The notes under the pieces are model-generated. The model was not told the origin of the DNA. It did no database searches and saw only the letters and a list, made by a program, of their open reading frames with translations. From Xanthomonas hydrangeae (lineage in GTDB: Bacteria > Pseudomonadota > Gammaproteobacteria > Xanthomonadales > Xanthomonadaceae): 64,000 bases of DNA. This document shows, piece by piece, positions 27,716 to 38,627 of this stretch; position 1 is the first letter of the stretch; each line of letters starts with the position of its first letter. The DNA lies in assembly GCA_905142475.1 (NCBI GenBank), contig LR990730.1, positions 4,650,001-4,714,000 of the forward strand, written 5' to 3'. Made by a program: the position numbers and the translations under genes.

Positions 27716-28117
27716 ATGATGATGTCCTACGGCACGTTTGTATTTGCCCTCGATAGCGCCGCCTATCTGCAGCTGCAGCGCCAGATGAGCTGGCGCCACC
27801 CCACCAGCGAGCGCGTCGGTGCGCGAGCGGCCAGCCAGTTCCTGGGCCCAGGCGATGAGACCATCGAGCTATCAGGGCTGATCGCGCCGGATCTGACCGG
27901 CACGCGTGGATCGCTGACCACGCTGCGCAGACTCGCAGCCGCTGGCGAGCCGCTGCCGCTGGTCGATGGCACGGGCTGGGTGTATGGGCCGTACGTGTTG
28001 CTGGCGGTCAACGAGACGGCCTCGCTGTTCTTCCCGGATGGCACGCCACGCCGGGTCGAGTTCCAACTGAGCCTGCGCCGCACCGACGACGTTGCGCCCG
28101 AGACAACTGCCGCATGA
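27716..28117 (+). CDS. U: P2 gpU-like tail protein
   Basis: A 133-residue protein: MSYGTFVFALDSAAY, SWRHPTSERVGARAASQFLGPGDETIELSG (read in pieces) and DGTGWVYGPYVL. It caps the distal tube. It overlaps D by four bases. Confidence 0.93.
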   Translation: MMMSYGTFVFALDSAAYLQLQRQMSWRHPTSERVGARAASQFLGPGDETIELSGLIAPDLTGTRGSLTTLRRLAAAGEPLPLVDGTGWVYGPYVLLAVNETASLFFPDGTPRRVEFQLSLRRTDDVAPETTAA

Positions 28118-29100
28118 GCTACCCGATTCCACAGTGGCGCGTGCTGCTCGATGGCACCGACCTCACCGAGCGCATCGCACCGCGCCTGCTCGATCTCACC
28201 CTCACCGAATGCCGTGGCGGCGAAGCCGACCAGTTGGATCTGCGGATCCACGACCACGACGGCAAGATGGCGTTGCCCAAACGCGGGGTGCGTCTGGCCG
28301 TGGCGTTGGGCTGGAAAGCTACCGGCCTGGTCGACAAAGGCACATTCGTCGTGGACGAGGTGGAGTACAGCGGTTCGCCGGACATCATCACGGTACGTGC
28401 GCGTAGTGCGGATCTGACTGCCGACATGCGCACACGGCGCGAACGCAGCTGGCACAACACCACGCTGGGTGCAGTGCTCAAAACGTTGGCCGGCGAGCAT
28501 GGACTGACACCGCGCGTGGCCGAGGCGCTGGCACGCACCAAGCTGCCCCATCTCGACCAGGCCAACGAGAGCGACATGAATCTGCTCACCCGCCTGGGGC
28601 AGCGCTTCGATGCAGTGGCAACGGTGAAGGGAGGTGCGTTGGTGTTTGCGCCGATCGGCGCCGGCACCACGGCGACCGGCAAGCCGTTGCCCACCGTCAC
28701 CCTGACGCGGCGCGACGGCGACCAACACCGCTACTCCGTGGCCGACCGCGATGCTTACACCGGTGTGCGCGCGTATTGGACGGACAAGGGCAAGGCGCGG
28801 CGGCAGTCGGTGCTGGTCGGCACGGACGACAACGCAAAGCGCCTGCGCGAGTCATATGCCGATGAGGCCACGGCACGCCAGCATGCGCATGCGGAGCTGG
28901 AGCGGGTGAAGCGCGGCGTGGCGAAGTTCGATTACACGCTGGCGATCGGCCAGGCGGATCTATTCCCAGAGCAGAGGCTGACGGCGAGCGGCTTTAAAAA
29001 GGAAATTGATGAGCAACGCTGGCTGATTGCCAAAGTAACGCACGTCATCGACGGATCAACCGGCTTTTCAAGCTCTCTTCAACTGGAATCCAGTTCATAG
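28114..29100 (+). CDS. D: P2 gpD-like baseplate hub protein
   Basis: A 328-residue protein with DLTERIAPRLLDLTLTECRG, ADQLDLRIHDHDG, the LAGEHGL and LARTKLPHLDQANESDMNLL blocks and the C-terminal WLIAKVTHVID. It is the late control/hub protein D, last of the conserved tail genes. In P2 the ogr activator follows; here a secreted cargo gene and then the lysogeny control region follow. Confidence 0.93.
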   Translation: MSYPIPQWRVLLDGTDLTERIAPRLLDLTLTECRGGEADQLDLRIHDHDGKMALPKRGVRLAVALGWKATGLVDKGTFVVDEVEYSGSPDIITVRARSADLTADMRTRRERSWHNTTLGAVLKTLAGEHGLTPRVAEALARTKLPHLDQANESDMNLLTRLGQRFDAVATVKGGALVFAPIGAGTTATGKPLPTVTLTRRDGDQHRYSVADRDAYTGVRAYWTDKGKARRQSVLVGTDDNAKRLRESYADEATARQHAHAELERVKRGVAKFDYTLAIGQADLFPEQRLTASGFKKEIDEQRWLIAKVTHVIDGSTGFSSSLQLESSS

Positions 29101-29894: not shown

Positions 29895-30326
29895 TCAAGA
29901 CTTCTTTTTTTTACGGCCGCCCATGTTGATCTGCATACATCTCTGGTCTATTGCGCCCGTCGTGTTAAGCATTTGAGCTACGTTGCTGTTGTCGTTTAAC
30001 GTCACCACAGGCGCAATTTTTTCAGCTCCCACGCGTACCGATCCAAGATCGGACAGCATCGCAGTGCGCACCTCATGTGATGCAGCGCGGAACGCAGCCA
30101 CCAATGCAGCCTCGGACGGGTCCAATTCCACCCGCTGTTCCAGAAGCACATACATGATATCTACGCCGCGAGCATGCGCGGCCAATAGGTAGGCTCCACC
30201 TGGCATGTTCTGGTCCTTCTCGAAGTAGAGCTGTGCCCACTTCGATATGCCACAAGCGTCGGCCATCTCCTGCTGCGTAAGGCGCAGACGCTTCCGTTCT
30301 TCCTTAAGGCGTTTCCCTACAGTCAC
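29895..30326 (-). CDS. phage C-type repressor (XRE HTH)
   Basis: A 143-residue protein starting at GTG 30326 with GAGGAA eight bases upstream. Residues 1-60 are an XRE helix-turn-helix (KRLKEERKRLRLTQQEMADACGIS, in pieces, then YFEKDQNMP). The rest is short and lacks a peptidase dyad, so it is a P2 C-like, SOS-insensitive repressor rather than a LexA-cleavable one. The C-terminus is Lys-rich. It diverges from the Cro/Cox-like gene, and the 18-bp palindrome at 30352-30369 is its likely operator. Confidence 0.8.
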   Translation of the reverse strand: MTVGKRLKEERKRLRLTQQEMADACGISKWAQLYFEKDQNMPGGAYLLAAHARGVDIMYVLLEQRVELDPSEAALVAAFRAASHEVRTAMLSDLGSVRVGAEKIAPVVTLNDNSNVAQMLNTTGAIDQRCMQINMGGRKKKKS

Positions 30327-30399: not shown

Positions 30400-30660
30400 A
30401 TGCCCCGCAAAGAGCAAACTCAGCAGCAATTCCATCCTCGAACCAAAGCAGAGGCGCGGGAATGGTTGGTGTCCAACGGCATTACGGTCTCTGGATTCGC
30501 CCGGCAACTTGGGGTGAATCGCACTGTTGTCGACGACCTGCTCCGAGGCCGCTCGCAGGGCAAGTACGGCGACGCACACACGGCTGCAATTGCTCTCGGC
30601 CTCAAAGCACCGCCGAATTATGCCGCAAAAGTCCAAACATCCAAGCGCTCTAGGGGGTGA
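30400..30660 (+). CDS. Cro/Cox-like phage DNA-binding protein
   Basis: An 86-residue basic protein from ATG 30400. Residues 17-55 (AREWLVSNGITVSGFARQLG and NRTVVDDLLRGR) form a helix-turn-helix of the phage-associated, BcepMu gp16-like type. It is the first gene of the early operon, opposite the repressor, as Cox/Cro proteins are. It is expected to counter the repressor and perhaps assist excision. Confidence 0.75.
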   Translation: MPRKEQTQQQFHPRTKAEAREWLVSNGITVSGFARQLGVNRTVVDDLLRGRSQGKYGDAHTAAIALGLKAPPNYAAKVQTSKRSRG

Positions 30661-30662
30661 GC

Positions 30663-30983
30663 ATGTTCGGTCGAAGGAAAATCGTCTTCAGCTGCGAGGC
30701 TTGTAGCGCAAGGCTCATCAAGCGCACCAGCGTCCTCGCACACAAGTTCCTACGGCACGACTCTTATGTGTGCGAGAACCCGATGTGTGGTGCGACCTAC
30801 ACAGGCCATTCTGAGTTGACCGGTATTGCCAGCCCGAGCGGTGTGCCCACCTCACACAGCGAGCTTCCACCAACACCGGCGCTACAGCGCGCCCAGGCTT
30901 TGCAGGCGTACCGCGAGTCGCTAGGCGACCGTCAGCTGGATCTGCTTCCCATAGGCGGCGAGCAGTTCTTCCCTCACCTCTGA
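30663..30983 (+). CDS. Ogr/Delta-like zinc-finger late activator
   Basis: About 106 residues from ATG 30663, with GGGGGT as ribosome site. Residues 9-50 (FSCEACSARLI ... YVCENPMCGATYTGHSEL) give C-x2-C and C-x4-C pairs, the Ogr/Delta family zinc finger. In P2 and P4 these proteins activate late promoters. It is relocated from its P2 position after D into the early operon, so late-gene activation would follow early expression. Confidence 0.8.
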   Translation: MFGRRKIVFSCEACSARLIKRTSVLAHKFLRHDSYVCENPMCGATYTGHSELTGIASPSGVPTSHSELPPTPALQRAQALQAYRESLGDRQLDLLPIGGEQFFPHL

Positions 30984-31490: not shown

Positions 31491-34187
31491 ATGCAAGAGG
31501 ATCTGCGGCAACAGGTGCTGTCCCGGCTGGAACGGGATTACGGACTCAAGCACCGTAGTGGTACCGAGTACATGCGCGGCGGCAAGTGCCCGTCGTGCAG
31601 CAAGAAAGAGCTCTACACCAACCATCTCAAACCATGGGTAGTGAAGTGCGGCCGCCAATCCAAGTGCGGGCGCGAGCTTCATGTCAAGGATCTATACGAC
31701 GACCTGTTCGACGACTGGTCCAAGCGCTTCCAGCCAACGCCTGCGGCTCCCAATGCTGCGGCCGACGCCTACCTGCAGTTCTCGCGTGGTTTCGACCTGG
31801 CGCCGCTGAAAGGTCTCTACAGCCAGGATAGCCACTACGATCGCAAGATCACCGCCGGCACCGCGACTGTGCGCTTTGCGCTGGTCAAGGGCGGCTGGTG
31901 GGAGCGCCTGATCGATCGCCCGCATCGCTTCGGCAAACAGAAGGCGCGCTTTGCGCCAGGCCAGAGCTATGCGGGTGTGTGGTGGGCGGCGCCTGCCGCG
32001 CTGACAGCCATGCAGACGGTGCGCGAGCTGTGGATCGTAGAAGGCATCTTTGATGCGATCGCGCTCCTGCAGCATGGCGTGTGCGCGGTATCGGCCATGT
32101 CTTCCAACGCATTTCCGGAAGAATCACTGCGCGAGCTCGCCAAGGCACGCATGGCCGATCTTCCGACGCTCGTGTGGGCACTGGACAACGAGCCAGGCGC
32201 CCGTGCGTACACGCACAAGCACATCAAGCGTGCAGCAGCGTTGGGCTTCGACTCGCGGGCAGCACAGATCGTCCAGCGCGATAGCAAGAAGACCGACTGG
32301 AACGACCTGCACCTGCGCGCTATCGCGTCGGATGATCCCAAGCAATGGGACAACGACGTCAAAGAAGCCCGCTACCAGGGCGATCTGCTCGTGGCCCGCT
32401 CGGCGGTAGACAAAGGTCTGCTGATGTTCGAGCACGACGGCCGTAACGACTTCTGGCTGGAGTACCGCTCCCGCCTGTATTGGTTCGATTTCGACACTCA
32501 GCGCTTCGACAAGCTGCGCAAGGAGAAGCTGGGCGACATTGATGCCGACGACGGTGACTAGGTTGCAGCCGAGGATCTGAAGAAGATCAAGCGCGCCGCC
32601 TGTTCCGTGCAGAAGATCGCTAACTGCTACCCCGAGGCGCTGTATTTCCAGCGCCAGGAAGTCACGGATGAGAGTTGGTACTACTTCCGCGTCGATTTTC
32701 CGCACGATGGCCCCAGCGTAAAGGGCACCTTTACCGGTGGTCATGTCGCCAGCGCGTCCGAGTTCAAGAAGCGCCTCATCTCCCTGGCGGCCGGCGCCAT
32801 GTTCACCGGTACCGGCCACCAGTTGGACCGCCTGATCGAGGAGCAGACCGAGGCGATCAAGACGGTCGACGCCATCGACTTCGTGGGCTACAGCAAGGAG
32901 CACCGCGCCTACCTGCTCGGCGATATGGCCGTGCGCGATGGCGAGCTGGTGACGGCCAACGAGGAGGACTACTTCGAGTTCGACAAGCTGCGTCTGAAGA
33001 CCACGCAAAAGTCCATCCGCTTGGAGATCCAGCGCGACGCCGAGGCGTTCCGCGTGGATTGGCTGCCGTGGCTGTGGCAGTGCTTCGGCACGCACGGCAT
33101 GGTCGCCATGACGTTCTGGTTTGGCTCGTTGTTTGCCGAGCAGATCCGCGCCGGGCACAAGAGCTTTCCGTTCCTAGAAGCCACCGGTGAAGCCGGCGCC
33201 GGAAAGACCACACTGCTGACGTTCCTGTGGAAGCTGCTGGGCCGCTCGGACTACGAGGGCTTCGACCCGGCCAAGTCGTCCAAGGCCGGCCGCGCACGCG
33301 CTATGGGCCAGGTGTCCGGCATGCCCGTCGTCCTGTTGGAGGCCGATCGCAGCGAGCCAGACAAAGCGCATTCCAAGACGTTCGAGTGGGATGAGCTGAA
33401 AGACTTCTTCGGTGGCGGCACCCTGGCAACGCGCGGCGTGCGCAATGGCGGCAACGAGACCTACGAGCCGCCGTTTCGCGGCACGATTGTGATCACCCAG
33501 AACGCCGCAGTGGACGCCAGCGAGGCGATCCTCACGCGCATCGTGAAGCTGCACTTCAAACGCCCGCAGGTCACCACCGAAAGCCGCATCGCGGCCGACA
33601 ACCTCAACGCGCTGCAGGTCGAAGAAGTCAGCCACTTCCTTGTGCGTGCCATTCGCCAAGAGCGCGCAATCCTCGATCTATTCGCTGAGCGGGCGAAGGT
33701 TTTTGAAGCCAAGCTTCGCGCTCAGCAAGATCTACGCCTTGAACGCGTCATCAAGAACCATGCGCAGATGCTGGCGCTGTTTGACTGTCTGCGCCTGGTT
33801 GTCGCTCTCCCTGACGACATGGTCGAGCAGACGCGGCTAGCGTTGTTGGACATGGCGCTGGAACGACAGAAGGCGATCAGCGCCGACCACGCGATGGTCA
33901 ACGAATTTTGGGAAGTCTACGAATACCTCGAAGCCACCGGCCACGGCAAACCTGTGGTCAACCACAGCCGCGACGCGCAGCGCATTGCGATCAACCTCAA
34001 TCACTTCGCTGCGCGGGCTGCTCAGTTCAGTCAGTCAGTGCCCGATCTCAAGGTGCTGCGTGCGCTGCTTGGCGACTCGCGCCGGCACAAGTTCATCGGC
34101 GCGAACGTAGCCGTCAACAGCGCCGTCCTCAAGGACGATCTGACCGGCGTCGGCACCACCGTGAAGTGCTGGGTGTTCGCCAAATGA
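31491..34187 (+). pseudogene. Toprim primase-helicase interrupted by in-frame TAG at 32559
   Basis: One frame runs 31491-34187 (898 sense codons) but is cut by TAG at 32559-32561. The first part (356 residues) has a CPSC...C zinc-binding primase motif near residue 35 and a Toprim core (LWIVEGIFDAIALLQHG near 185, LVWALDNEPGA near 225, KTDWNDL near 267). The second part continues without a frame change; its first usable start is GTG 32607. It carries a Walker A GEAGAGKTT near codon 565 and a sensor-like GTIVITQNA, the P4 alpha/DUF927-like helicase. It would replicate phage DNA. Either the gene is inactivated, the parts work as two proteins, or the codon is read through. Confidence 0.75.
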
Positions 34188-34261
34188 GCGCACTCGCACA
34201 TGTGGGAAATTTTGAAAAATTTTCGTTGACATCTGCCCAGGAGCGGAGCAACCATTACCGC

Positions 34262-34346
34262 GTCGCCGCAAAATCGGCGACCGGGTTTGACAGCCTGAAT
34301 CAACGGCGCACCAGCGCCCATCGACCGATGCACGGCGCTTTTTTTT
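34262..34346 (+). terminator. attenuator: hairpin, UUGACAG target and intrinsic terminator
   Basis: A perfect 7-bp hairpin GTCGCCG/CGGCGAC lies at 34262-34281. Then comes GTTTGACAG (34285-34293), then GGCGC (34305-34309), which can pair with GCGCC (34314-34318). The same GCGCC alternatively pairs with GGCGC at 34334-34338, extended by CATC/GATG and followed by eight T. This is a terminator with a competing upstream pairing, as expected for an attenuator controlling the small-gene operon and integrase downstream. Confidence 0.7.
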
Positions 34347-34390
34347 CGCTCGCTGTGCAGTCGCGGGCGTTTGCCAGCCAGTTCTATGGC

Positions 34391-34456
34391 GGGCGGTGTG
34401 CGGAGGCCTTCGGGCCTGCCGGTTCCGTTGACCGGTCTGTCAACCGTGCACCGTCC
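34391..34456 (+). ncRNA. C4/CI-like antisense RNA candidate
   Basis: The DNA folds into a closed three-way junction. The outer stem pairs 34391-34403 with 34444-34456 (13 bp with G-U pairs). Inside are AGGCC-TTCG-GGCCT (34404-34417) and CCGGT/ACCGG (34419-34435). The only sizeable unpaired stretch is UCUGUCAA (34436-34443). Its complement UUGACAG occurs exactly at 34287-34293, before the terminator, and at 34467-34473, in a hairpin loop just after. This matches the seqA/seqB/seqC logic of P4 CI and P1/P7 C4 immunity RNAs. No covariance search was possible. Confidence 0.6.
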
Positions 34457-34486
34457 GCCACCTCGTTTGACAGCGTCGTGGCGGAC
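34453..34486 (+). promoter_or_regulatory. second target hairpin upstream of the small-gene operon
   Basis: GTCCGCCAC (34453-34461) pairs perfectly with GTGGCGGAC (34478-34486) and presents GTTTGACAG (34465-34473) in its loop, complementary to the unpaired CUGUCAA of the antisense candidate. Its 5' arm overlaps the 3' arm of that RNA, so the two structures exclude each other. The first gene starts 24 bases later at 34511, with ACGGAG as ribosome site. Confidence 0.6.
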
Positions 34487-34510
34487 TCCAACTACAACGG
34501 AGCCTGCACC

Positions 34511-34729
34511 ATGACCTACGACGCTCAAGAAGCGCCGGCCAATGCCGCGCGTCAGATCGCCCATTACTTCGGCCTGATTGCCGACACCCTCGATTGGAAC
34601 CACACCGCCTGGCTCGCCCTGCAGGCGAAGCTGCAGGCCATGGGCAAAGCGCCCGAAGCACTGACGCTGGCCGATGTCGAGGCCGCCATTTCCAGCACCA
34701 ATGCCGACCTGGTAGAGGTGCGCCAGTGA
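34511..34729 (+). CDS. hypothetical small phage protein
   Basis: A 72-residue, acidic, helical protein (MTYDAQEAPANAARQIAHYF). First of a string of overlapping small genes behind the structured leader. No family recognised. Confidence 0.6.
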   Translation: MTYDAQEAPANAARQIAHYFGLIADTLDWNHTAWLALQAKLQAMGKAPEALTLADVEAAISSTNADLVEVRQ

Positions 34730-35013
34730 GCCGCCGCGACCTGCATAAAGCGCTGCGCGTCGCCCCCGGCGTCTACCTGCTCCTGCAGATCCGGGCGACC
34801 GACGTCCTGGCCGAACTGTACGCCGACAGCCTGCATGACCGCCCACCGGTCATGTTCGCCTGCAGCGCGATCGAAAAGGCTTCCGAGTTGTTCCTGGTCG
34901 ATGACGGCACTGGCCTGGCCATTGGCTCGTTGCACGTTGTGATGCCGGAAGCCGAGGCTGCCGCGCTGCAGGAATGGGTAATAGATCGCTTGCCCGCGTT
35001 GGAGGTGGCTTGA
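34726..35013 (+). CDS. hypothetical small phage protein
   Basis: A 95-residue protein from GTG 34726, overlapping the previous stop by four bases and the next start by one. It contains VAPGVYLLLQIRATDVLAELY and an acidic C-terminus. No recognised domain. Confidence 0.6.
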   Translation: MSRRDLHKALRVAPGVYLLLQIRATDVLAELYADSLHDRPPVMFACSAIEKASELFLVDDGTGLAIGSLHVVMPEAEAAALQEWVIDRLPALEVA

Positions 35014-36926: not shown

Positions 36927-37147
36927 GCGGAGGTGTACTGACATTTGAGGATCTGCGGCGCCTATGCGCGCCAGTTGGCCCCTCCCCTCGTGCAGCTACC
37001 GTAGTGCGTTGGGCCAACGATCAGGGCATCCGTTACAAGTACGACGGTCGAGGTGGGATCTGGACAACGCTAGATGCGCTCAATGCCGCCCTTGGATTGC
37101 AGCACGACAACGACACCGAGATGGATACAGAACAGGAGCTGATGTAA
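36923..37147 (+). CDS. DUF4224-like protein, possible excisionase
   Basis: A 74-residue protein from ATG 36923: LTFEDLRRLCAPVGPSPRAATVVRWANDQGI, in pieces, then YDGRGGIWTTLDAL. It follows the DUF4224 pattern, a winged-helix-like domain often found just before integrases. It overlaps the integrase start by one base, so the two are co-translated. An excisionase or directionality role is inferred. Confidence 0.65.
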   Translation: MSGGVLTFEDLRRLCAPVGPSPRAATVVRWANDQGIRYKYDGRGGIWTTLDALNAALGLQHDNDTEMDTEQELM

Positions 37148-38334
37148 TGGCACGAGGCCGCAAGCGCAAATTCAATCCACTCATACCGGCACACATTGAC
37201 CAGGCCGCGCTCCCGCGCGGCCTATATCGGGAGGATGGCCGGTGGTACGTCGTCGAGCCGCACCCAGAAGGCGGGGCCACACGAAAGCAAACCGTGGCTT
37301 ACGCTGGAGCTCGTCTATCGGAATTGCATGGAATCGTTGAGGAACGTGCAGGTAGGGGCACGCGCGGCACGTTGCGCTATCTCTTCGATCGCTTTCACGA
37401 GTCGTTGGAGTTCAAGGAACTGGCAACCGACACGCAAGATGACTACCGGCGTTATGCCGACTCCATTGCCAACTATCTCCGCAAAGACGGATCGAAGTTG
37501 GGCTCAGTGCAGGTTGATCGCATCACCACGCCTGTGGTCCAGCGACTCGTGGAAGTCTTCGCAATGGGGCGACCAGCCAACCGTTACCAACCCGCGCTTC
37601 CAGCGACGCCTAGTAAGGCAAATCACCTTCACCGCTATTTACGTCGCACACTCGCGTGGGGCGTGCGCGTCGGCCTATGCAGATCGAATCCAGCCATCGG
37701 CGTGAGGCAAGCACGCGAAGCAAAGAAACACCGGATGCCAACGCCGGCCGCGTTCGACAAGGTGCTGACCTTCGCAAGAGAGCGCGGCTCCCTTCCGCCG
37801 CATACAAAGGGCAGCTGCCCGAGCTATCTCGCGCCAGTCATGGTGCTCGCATATAGCGCGCGCCTACGCGGCATTGAGGTGTGCACGCTCGACGACACAC
37901 ATAAGCAGCCAACAGGCATCCATGCTCAACGGCGCAAGGGATCACGCGACACGCTTACAGAGTGGGATCCAAAGATGATCGAAGCGTGGGATTTCCTCGT
38001 AACACGACGAACTGCCATATGGACCAAAAACGGTCGGAATTTTGCAGTCCCGATCAAGGCTGAGGATCGGCGCCTACTCGTTGAACAGACCGGTAATCCG
38101 ATGGCTAAATCATCGCTGGATAGTGCCTGGCAACGATTCATCACTCTCGCAATGAAAGAAGGGATCATTTCGAAGCAGGAGCGCTTTTCGTTGCATGGCC
38201 TAAAGCATCGCGGCATTACCGACACAGTGGGTAACCGGGGCGACAAACAAGATGCTGCAGGGCACGTGACACCAGCAACGACAGGCCGTTATGACCATGC
38301 GCTGCCGGTGGTAAAACCGCCAAAGCGCAGCTAA
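37147..38334 (+). CDS. int: prophage tyrosine-family integrase
   Basis: A 395-residue recombinase. A SAM-like core-binding domain lies near residues 75-200 and the catalytic domain near 210-390. Catalytic residues visible are Arg in YSARLRGIE (about 240), the HGLKH motif (about 355), GHVTPATTGRYDH with the second His (about 375) and the Tyr nucleophile. The usual HxxR box reads H-G-L-K, a Lys in place of Arg, as in some Burkholderia and Xanthomonas phage integrases. The gene ends 67 bases from the tRNA, which is its likely attB. Confidence 0.92.
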   Translation: MARGRKRKFNPLIPAHIDQAALPRGLYREDGRWYVVEPHPEGGATRKQTVAYAGARLSELHGIVEERAGRGTRGTLRYLFDRFHESLEFKELATDTQDDYRRYADSIANYLRKDGSKLGSVQVDRITTPVVQRLVEVFAMGRPANRYQPALPATPSKANHLHRYLRRTLAWGVRVGLCRSNPAIGVRQAREAKKHRMPTPAAFDKVLTFARERGSLPPHTKGSCPSYLAPVMVLAYSARLRGIEVCTLDDTHKQPTGIHAQRRKGSRDTLTEWDPKMIEAWDFLVTRRTAIWTKNGRNFAVPIKAEDRRLLVEQTGNPMAKSSLDSAWQRFITLAMKEGIISKQERFSLHGLKHRGITDTVGNRGDKQDAAGHVTPATTGRYDHALPVVKPPKRS

Positions 38335-38401
38335 TTTTCCCGGCAATTTTCCCGGCCGCTTCAATTCAGGGCGCTTGGCAGGAGCTAAGCCCTTGATTTT
38401 A

Positions 38402-38477
38402 TGGTGGGCCCAGAAGGATTCGAACCTTCAACCAAAGGATTATGAGTCCTCTGCTCTAACCGTTGAGCTATAGGCCC
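38402..38477 (-). tRNA. ileX: tRNA-Ile2 (CAU anticodon), prophage attachment site
   Basis: A 76-base cloverleaf with encoded CCA. The acceptor is GGGCCTA/TGGGCCC and the anticodon loop CTCATAA gives CAU. The D-loop (AACGGTTAGAGCAG) and variable region (TTTGGTTG) resemble E. coli ileX rather than elongator tRNA-Met, so after lysidine modification it should read AUA. The prophage joins at its 3' side, leaving the gene intact. Automated tools may label it tRNA-Met. Confidence 0.88.
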
Positions 38478-38627
38478 GGCAGGGTGGGTGGCGAGATGCG
38501 GGGCATGTCGGACCGTCCAGCTGAGGCGAAAGTTTACCCGTCCGCGCGCGTCGCTGTCTGCTGACATCCGGCGTCGATGAGGAGAAGCGCCTGCACCCAC
38601 CTGCGCTTGCGCATGCCGGCACAAAAA

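Follow-up and report, generated by a model that had tools for sequence, protein, structure and literature searches.

Gene context of the locus

The window, that is, the whole stretch of 64,000 nucleotides that was analysed, from contig LR990730.1 of the 5.58 Mb genome of Xanthomonas hydrangeae, contains the right end of a P2-like prophage. The genes and features identified there are the following.

around 27716-29100, gpU/gpD-like tail ORFs, named by eye
29895-30326, minus strand, HTH repressor-like gene (DicA/phrog_8-like), a profile match below the NCBIfam cut-offs
30657-30983, Ogr/Delta zinc finger
31491-34187, primase-like gene in two pieces, upstream of the C4 module
34226-34255, plus strand, promoter-like site read by eye, with TTGACA at 34226-34231, 18 nt, and a weak -10, AACCAT, at 34250-34255
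34511-34729, plus strand, 72-aa anti-repressor-like ORF, the first gene behind C4 (phrog_26166; phrog_17048 'anti-repressor', E 3.2e-7)
34726-35013, plus strand, small ORF with a function-less profile, phrog_24273
37147-38334, plus strand, integrase (tyrosine recombinase; phrog_1, E 5.8e-29)
38402-38477, minus strand, tRNA-Met, adjoining the integrase

The nearest phage record by DNA was Stenotrophomonas phage Smp131, with 73.5% identity over 10% of a 24.9-kb query. We looked for the left attachment site and found no exact same-strand repeat of at least 12 nt of the stretch 38341-38480 in the rest of the window. An in-frame TAG at 32559-32561 interrupts the primase-like gene; it may be a nonsense change, recoding or an assembly error.

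A transcript is expected to start near 34262, from the promoter-like site. In the set of related C4 loci described below, TTGACA was present 50-68 nt before the first target word, a1, in 51 of the 83 loci where a1 was found, and TTGA in 79 of the 83; TTGACA occurred in none of 1071 control windows. An earlier note, made from the letters of this DNA, had placed the early operon up to the integrase under RNA control. This was borne out only in part: the 72-aa ORF and the small ORFs directly behind C4 would be under such control, and the integrase that follows may be if one transcript reaches it. However, the C4 leader and its promoter-like site are located downstream of the primase-like gene, which is thus not under the C4 switch, so that the 'early operon' had been drawn too wide. 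Together, C4 and the DicA-like HTH gene (29895-30326, minus strand) may form two layers of immunity.

A C4 antisense RNA with two pairing words

A cmscan of the whole window returned four matches above the gathering cut-offs: C4, a tRNA, c4-a1b1 and isrK. The C4 model, which had been proposed as a check of the P1 C4- and P4 CI-like reading in the earlier note, matched well above its cut-off (82.0 bits against 45). The RNA and its pairing words, named as in P1 from the annotation of NC_005856, are as follows.

34382-34465, plus strand, C4 antisense RNA (RF01695), 82.0 bits, gathering cut-off 45, E 1.5e-14, with covarying stems
34423-34431, plus strand, b', the P3 loop, UUCCGUUGA
34437-34443, plus strand, a', the junction CUGUCAA of the three-way junction
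34287-34293, plus strand, a1, UUGACAG in a hairpin loop, exact complement of a'
34300-34306, plus strand, b1, UCAACGG, complementary to the P3 loop; the final GG also forms the first two bases of the anti-terminator arm
34467-34473, plus strand, a2, UUGACAG, complement of a'
34495-34501, plus strand, b2, CAACGGA, complement of the P3 loop, overlapping the Shine-Dalgarno sequence GGAG
34453-34486, plus strand, alternative hairpin with a2 inside, 34453-34461 pairing with 34478-34486 (9 pairs)

By this score, which is among the top five of the 70 C4 matches in the genus, the locus can be assigned to the known C4 family as a new member. Comparison with P1 C4 leads us to expect a mature RNA of about 75 nt, from about 34388, where there is a GG at which RNase P would cut it out of a longer transcript, to about 34462. 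This stretch folds at -51.4 kcal/mol (z -6.2), and none of 200 shuffles was equally stable. The three-way-junction RNA had been proposed at 34391-34456; its fold was right and its ends slightly off. The junction a' pairs over 7 of 7 nt with both a1 and a2, and the b' loop over 7 nt with both b1 and b2. The b2 word takes in GGA of the GGAG Shine-Dalgarno sequence, at a distance of 8 nt from the start codon at 34511. While CUGUCAA in the junction and both UUGACAG words had been located correctly, that is, the a word, the second word, formed by the P3 loop with its targets b1 and b2, had been missed.

The hairpin that the earlier note had described after the RNA is real, since the folding check found its 9 pairs; it cannot coexist with C4 because it uses the 3' strand of the P1 stem of C4 as its own 5' arm. 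Complements of at least 6 nt for this hairpin were present in 64 of the 90 loci, but crossing the loci gave them as well, in 577 of 1267 pairs, and as a locus-specific element the hairpin was considered weak.

C4 of phage P1 (RF01695, with its leader c4-a1b1, RF03163) has the same fold and the same order of elements, a1, b1, C4, a2, b2 and gene. Its a1, a' and a2 have the same letters as those of the window (UUGACAG/CUGUCAA) and its b2 also lies at the ribosome site, whereas the b words differ. The P1 leader, which reads GCGG-ACAA-CCGC and then GCGG-UAUUUUU (GUUAGUGCGG-ACAA-CCGC...GCGGUAUUUUU; L091 1416-1475), shows by eye the same plan of anti-terminator and terminator behind b1 as the window. 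In P4, a terminator lies between the upstream target and the RNA, and this feature of the CI immunity system is present in the window at 34314-34346. The P4 CI RNA (seqA, seqC) is described in passages of PMC4825925 as a leader-derived antisense RNA that pairs upstream and downstream and causes termination in the leader, so that antisense-dependent termination in P4 is known work; the likeness to P4 CI rests on this description.

C4-like RNAs have been treated before. Passages of PMC5320573 deal with C4-like RNAs in Acinetobacter, processing in P1 and Weinberg's prediction in Xanthomonadales, and c4 antisense RNA and c4-a1b1 are listed in part of PMC2864571. A table in PMC11701678 names c4-2 (RF02944), and further c4-named families are thus already recognised in Rfam; cmscan gave no match to c4-2 in the sequences scanned here. 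In phage vB_Pae_U10, a deposited CDS spans the c4-a1b1 and C4 RNAs (L093 1871-2614), and the annotated protein is probably too long.

The leader and its putative shared-base attenuator

The earlier note had described an intrinsic terminator with a competing pairing, and both were found in the leader.

34249-34301, plus strand, c4-a1b1 leader (RF03163), 53.0 bits, gathering cut-off 46.7
34262-34345, plus strand, isrK-like terminated leader (RF01394), 50.6 bits, gathering cut-off 50, marginal
34305-34318, plus strand, anti-terminator hairpin GGCGC-ACCA-GCGCC, GGCGC at 34305-34309 pairing with GCGCC at 34314-34318
34314-34346, plus strand, intrinsic terminator GCGCC...GGCGC-U8, with the arm GGCGC at 34334-34338 and the U tract at 34339-34346

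The arm GCGCC is common to both structures, as 3' arm of the anti-terminator and 5' arm of the terminator. Across 90 C4 loci, a triplet of arms of this kind was present in 77 and absent, as searched, from 13. In L072-L074 all three arms had changed together (GCGGC/GCCGC/GCGGC). The range in which we sought b1 ran from 10 nt upstream of the anti-terminator arm to 3 nt within it, and in all 75 triplet loci with b1 it reached into that arm, by 1 nt in 3 loci, 2 nt in 64 and 3 nt in 8.

We then folded 61 distinct leaders from the 90 loci, leaving out those without the triplet (13), those without a1 or b1, and duplicates. For free leaders the folding gave 0.67 for the anti-terminator and 0.27 for the terminator. 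Covering a1 and b1 changed these values to 0.01 and 0.97, and covering the same words except the shared bases gave 0.74 and 0.26. The terminator was already favoured without C4 in 13 of the 61 leaders. The switch in folding is partly built in, because covering b1 covers anti-terminator bases, and what the model would show is the effect of base sharing, not C4 arriving in time. The real finding is that b1 and the anti-terminator share bases, and that this sharing is kept.

Covariation of words and stems

The genus set consisted of all 70 C4 places listed, in 26 of 35 genomes, one of the 70 being below the cut-off. A further 20 C4 places came from other genera, the family search having matched 53 of 247 genomes. 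Complements of at least 6 nt to the RNA of the same locus were found in the 70 genus loci for a1 in 69, b1 in 65, a2 in 63 and b2 in 63. When the targets were set against the RNA of other loci bearing a different word, the matches were 168/4032 for a1, 272/4586 for b1, 134/4032 for a2 and 498/4586 for b2. The 70 loci hold 12 distinct a words and 25 distinct b words; as C4 loci are related, the counts of loci are not independent events, and these numbers of words are the more reliable guide. In related loci the a words become TTGGCGT, TTAGCAG, TTTGCAG and others, together with a'. The a and b words also recombine: in the genus set the loop TCCTCAGG is combined with either CTGCAAA or ACGCCAA, and L052, from a different genus, combines it with CTGCTAA.

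For the stems, 36 sequences were chosen (27 of the 70, 7 of the 20 from other genera, P1 and D6). Stem cells were paired in 96.3%, against 34-44% in slid controls, and 15 of the 27 stem pairs had changed on both sides, the kind of compensatory change that the earlier note had suggested looking for. Double-change cells numbered 47, compared with 11.0 in shuffles, and 0 of 500 shuffles reached as high. The tests on the C4 sequence, namely the Rfam score and the covariation of words and of stems, all bore out the P1 C4/P4 CI-like reading.

Not all loci are complete. In six loci (L029, L075, L078, L081, L086 and L088) the P3 loop is 17-18 nt long; a1 is kept in 6 of them and b1 in 2, a2 and b2 are absent, and no ORF with a Shine-Dalgarno sequence was found close behind. 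L090 is a clearly decayed relative, with 39.6 bits and no target of 6 nt. In one genus of the family (g29; for example L044, L046 and L049) a single genome can hold as many as 12 dispersed C4 matches; of five g29 loci, L044, L046 and L049 were without a U-tract terminator leader and had another layout, and L050 and L052 have the leader. Two C4 matches on the same strand, separated by 0.4-1.3 kb, were seen at each of G259:C58:87636/88000, G166:C72:24289/25164, G199:C6:69883/71145 and G208:C2:204195/205110.

The X. hydrangeae genome itself has four C4 places, which differ from one another in their a and b words. The match between an RNA and its four cognate targets is 7-9 nt long, and no RNA matches the targets of another of the four places by more than 5 nt. 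This would fit four compatible immunity types. The genus set showed a tendency to avoid equal types within genomes, but not a significant one: identical (a,b) pairs were 1 of 78 against a shuffled mean of 3.3 (P 0.14), and the b word alone gave P 0.21.

The gene behind C4

The 72-aa ORF is homologous to part of CH36_gp37 of Smp131, called anti-repressor in NC_023588. With this annotation and one PHROG match as the evidence, we infer that its product is an anti-repressor. Its named relatives in Xanthomonas and Stenotrophomonas are called 'hypothetical', and neither Pfam nor NCBIfam gave a match for it. Unlike P1 C4, the C4 of the window sits in an integrated P2-like prophage and has no icd relative behind it. 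An icd relative directly behind C4, as in the c4-icd-ant operon of P1, was rejected, BLASTP giving no alignment of P1 Icd with the 72-aa ORF.

ORFs with a Shine-Dalgarno sequence were found behind C4 in 81 of the 90 loci and grouped by single-linkage BLASTP. The 72-aa family accounts for 39 of the 81 and a SymE-like group for 17 (PF08845 at 42.9 bits in the one member tested). Groups of 14 and 3 ORFs gave no Pfam match in the one member tested of each, and 8 were singletons, including a P22_AR_N anti-repressor in L035. Conversely, the 72-aa family was searched in the genome collection (15 loci) and in viral collections (the best 80 of 121 matches), many of the viral loci being near-identical prophages and some of the genome loci repeating loci of the other sets. 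C4 lay upstream in 90 of these 95 loci, recognised by pattern in 89 and by Rfam in L269; in the 89 pattern loci a1, a2 and b2 matched in 89 and b1 in 84. The other five (L204, L205, L206, L285 and L286) had sRNA-Xcc1 by pattern, which was confirmed in the Rfam scan of 13 of the 95 loci.

Proposed mechanism and alternatives

We regard it as very probable that this is a C4-family module by which a P2-like prophage silences its anti-repressor-like gene, through forced termination and a hidden Shine-Dalgarno sequence. The promoter near 34226-34255 would start a leader carrying a1 and b1. Part of the transcripts would stop at the intrinsic terminator, at 34346, and the rest would read through C4 into the anti-repressor-like gene. 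C4, of about 75 nt, would be processed from the read-through RNA and would pair by a' and b' with the two target pairs, a1/b1 and a2/b2. On a1/b1 it would take bases needed by the anti-terminator, and the terminator would form, ending later transcripts before C4; on a2/b2 it would hide the Shine-Dalgarno sequence of the 72-aa ORF. Such forced termination would also limit the production of C4 itself. Through both actions the anti-repressor-like gene would stay repressed, not only in the prophage but also in an incoming phage that shares its a/b type, which would be immunity. The order of these events in the cell is one that we infer.

Silencing could instead be a matter of translation alone, as in P1, with C4 acting at a2/b2, downstream transcript loss being Rho polarity, and a1/b1 and the terminator being secondary. 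The P1 record, where translational repression is assigned to a2/b2 and a1/b1 is given only as 'putative', is in favour of this, as is the position of b2 on the Shine-Dalgarno sequence in the window, kept in 63 of 70 loci. However, a1 and b1 are conserved no less well (69 and 65 of 70), the six loci without a2/b2 retain a1 in 6 and b1 in 2, and b1 shares anti-terminator bases in 75 of the 75 loci with both found; we consider control by translation alone rather unlikely. The sharing of 1-3 bases between b1 and the anti-terminator, seen wherever both were found, would make a concrete attenuator of the 'putative' a1/b1 site of P1.

The module could also work in the opposite direction, the short terminated leader acting in trans on the read-through transcript and turning translation on. 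The window leader with its terminator scores as isrK (RF01394), the RNA of Salmonella prophage Gifsy-1, at 50.6 bits, and in passages of PMC4825925 the reported role of the short IsrK is activation of a long inactive mRNA, with a comparison to SeqA of P4. The match is barely above its cut-off and falls on a shared leader, though, and all four targets, with b2 on the Shine-Dalgarno sequence, fit repression by C4, which makes activation improbable. Still less probable is a decayed remnant of a defective prophage, in which the module no longer works. The TAG at 32559-32561 in the primase-like gene and the decayed relative L090 would agree with decay, but every part of the module is present and matching in the window, its C4 score ranks in the top five of the 70, and loci L005 and L006 have an identical a/b pair. 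As for the UUGACAG words being only -35 boxes or chance repeats, UUGACAG does contain TTGACA, which also occurs upstream at 34226. Both words and their flanking targets vary together across the 70 loci, the a words changing with a' through 12 forms, so that they are not just -35 boxes; covariation has refuted this reading, and we give it next to no credence.

sRNA-Xcc1 in the place of C4

No C4 match was found in a 12.2-kb stretch of Smp131. In the place expected for C4 it carries sRNA-Xcc1 (RF02221; 73.5 bits, L094 5849-5936). The same RNA lies before the homologue of the 72-aa gene in six phage-type loci of Stenotrophomonas (Smp131, L204, L205, L206, L285 and L286), and the plan a1-b1-terminator-RNA-a2-b2 is present in 6 of 6, all four words matching over 6-8 nt and b2 running into GGAG. 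When phage-type loci with different b words were crossed, matches of at least 6 nt were found in 6 (a1), 4 (b1), 6 (a2) and 1 (b2) of 24 pairs, some of them because a words are partly shared among loci. The leaders contain GCGG...CCGC and a terminator CCGC...GCGG-U7, and covering a1 and b1 raised the terminator from 0.00-0.05 to 0.41-0.92 in five distinct leaders. A deposited CDS spans sRNA-Xcc1 in Smp131 (L094 5665-6237), and the annotated protein is probably too long.

sRNA-Xcc1 differs from C4 in belonging to another covariance family, with no clan shown, and in a longer P2 with an internal loop. The C4 model gave no match to it at E 0.5 in L094 5300-6300, at 0.1 in L185, L186, L187, L189 and L190, or at the gathering cut-off in L204, L205, L206, L285 and L286.

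sRNA-Xcc1 across the genus and its link to SymE

All 35 genomes of the genus carry sRNA-Xcc1. We sampled 90 loci among 150 listed (30 selected automatically and 60 by hand, hence not at random); 87 of 91 loci were usable, 86 from the genus and Smp131, with L116, L141, L143 and L176 left out. Complements of at least 6 nt to the RNA of the same locus were found for b1 in 83, a1 in 84, b2 in 6 and a2 in 5 of the 87. For b1, complements of at least 7 nt were present in 81 of 87 loci against 196 of 7008 crossed pairs, and 21 of the 26 b words had at least 7 nt in every member. No b2 of at least 6 nt was found in 81 of the 87. The six loci with b2 are Smp131, the symE-cassette-type L095-L098, and L181, where b2 is at an untypical place and is taken as chance; a2 is present in the first five. 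The sequences of most chromosomal copies thus point to pairing of leader and RNA only. A folding switch was not seen in sRNA-Xcc1 leaders as a class, the terminator arm being paired at 0.85 when free and 0.92 when covered by a coarse measure in 74 leaders; in one symE-cassette leader, covering a1 and b1 raised the terminator weakly, from 0.02 to 0.21.

Behind chromosomal sRNA-Xcc1 we found SymE (PF08845 at 52.9 and 76.2 bits in the two tested) and ORFs of the XAC0095 family (three tested). Among the matches listed, sRNA-Xcc1 lies at most 700 nt upstream on the same strand of 88 of 150 SymE genes and within 1000 nt on the other strand of 9 of 150; in the mirror position downstream it was found for 0 of 150. 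In the X. hydrangeae genome it is upstream of 5 of 7 SymE genes and C4 is upstream of 1 of 7, examples of SymE genes with one or the other being G000:C1:175541-175996 and G000:C1:5168107-5168582; the seventh has, by eye, a degenerate sRNA-Xcc1-like leader and RNA. Before one SymE gene, the assembly contains a stretch (L188 at about 1439-1503, G000:C1 at about 190987-191051) that we take to be sequencing-adapter sequence.

The discovery of sRNA-Xcc1 is reported in PMC2996969, and the parts of the literature at hand describe it as integron-borne, controlled by HrpG/HrpX and suspected of a role in virulence. An integron cassette of symE and sRNA-Xcc1 in 13 species, with a divergent regulatory mechanism suggested, is covered in passages of PMC12444791. 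A section of PMC12189769, the only paper with both C4 and sRNA-Xcc1 among the search matches listed, lists C4, isrK and sRNA-Xcc1 in Xylella and, within that section, draws no link among them. According to an excerpt of PMC8780938, one Aeromonas salmonicida strain has 15 copies of sRNA-Xcc1 and the atypical strains have none, so that Xanthomonas is not alone in carrying it in many copies. The neighbourhood of sRNA-Xcc1 and symE is already known; the excerpts of the sRNA-Xcc1 literature, in which the main description is not included, contain no link between C4 and sRNA-Xcc1 and no C4-type plan for the latter.

We consider it likely that sRNA-Xcc1 is a further family of C4-type riboregulators. 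It would replace C4, with all four words, before the same anti-repressor-like gene in phage-type loci of Stenotrophomonas, and act in Xanthomonas as a leader-borne brake of SymE toxins and XAC0095-type genes, integron cassettes included; C4, too, is found before SymE. Brake and payload could then be exchanged independently of each other and would serve two ends, phage immunity and an RNA antitoxin function, and dozens of pairs of RNA and target words would exist in parallel. The putative shared-base attenuator and the proposed link to sRNA-Xcc1 lift the locus above the routine. In the passages of the literature consulted, sRNA-Xcc1 is a virulence-linked RNA without an established target. Its sequence suggests that it shares the C4 plan and may be a silencer of genes of phages and toxins. 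From this plan we would predict two kinds of target, the leader of the RNA itself and, in loci with a b2, the gene that follows, be it the phage anti-repressor-like gene or symE.
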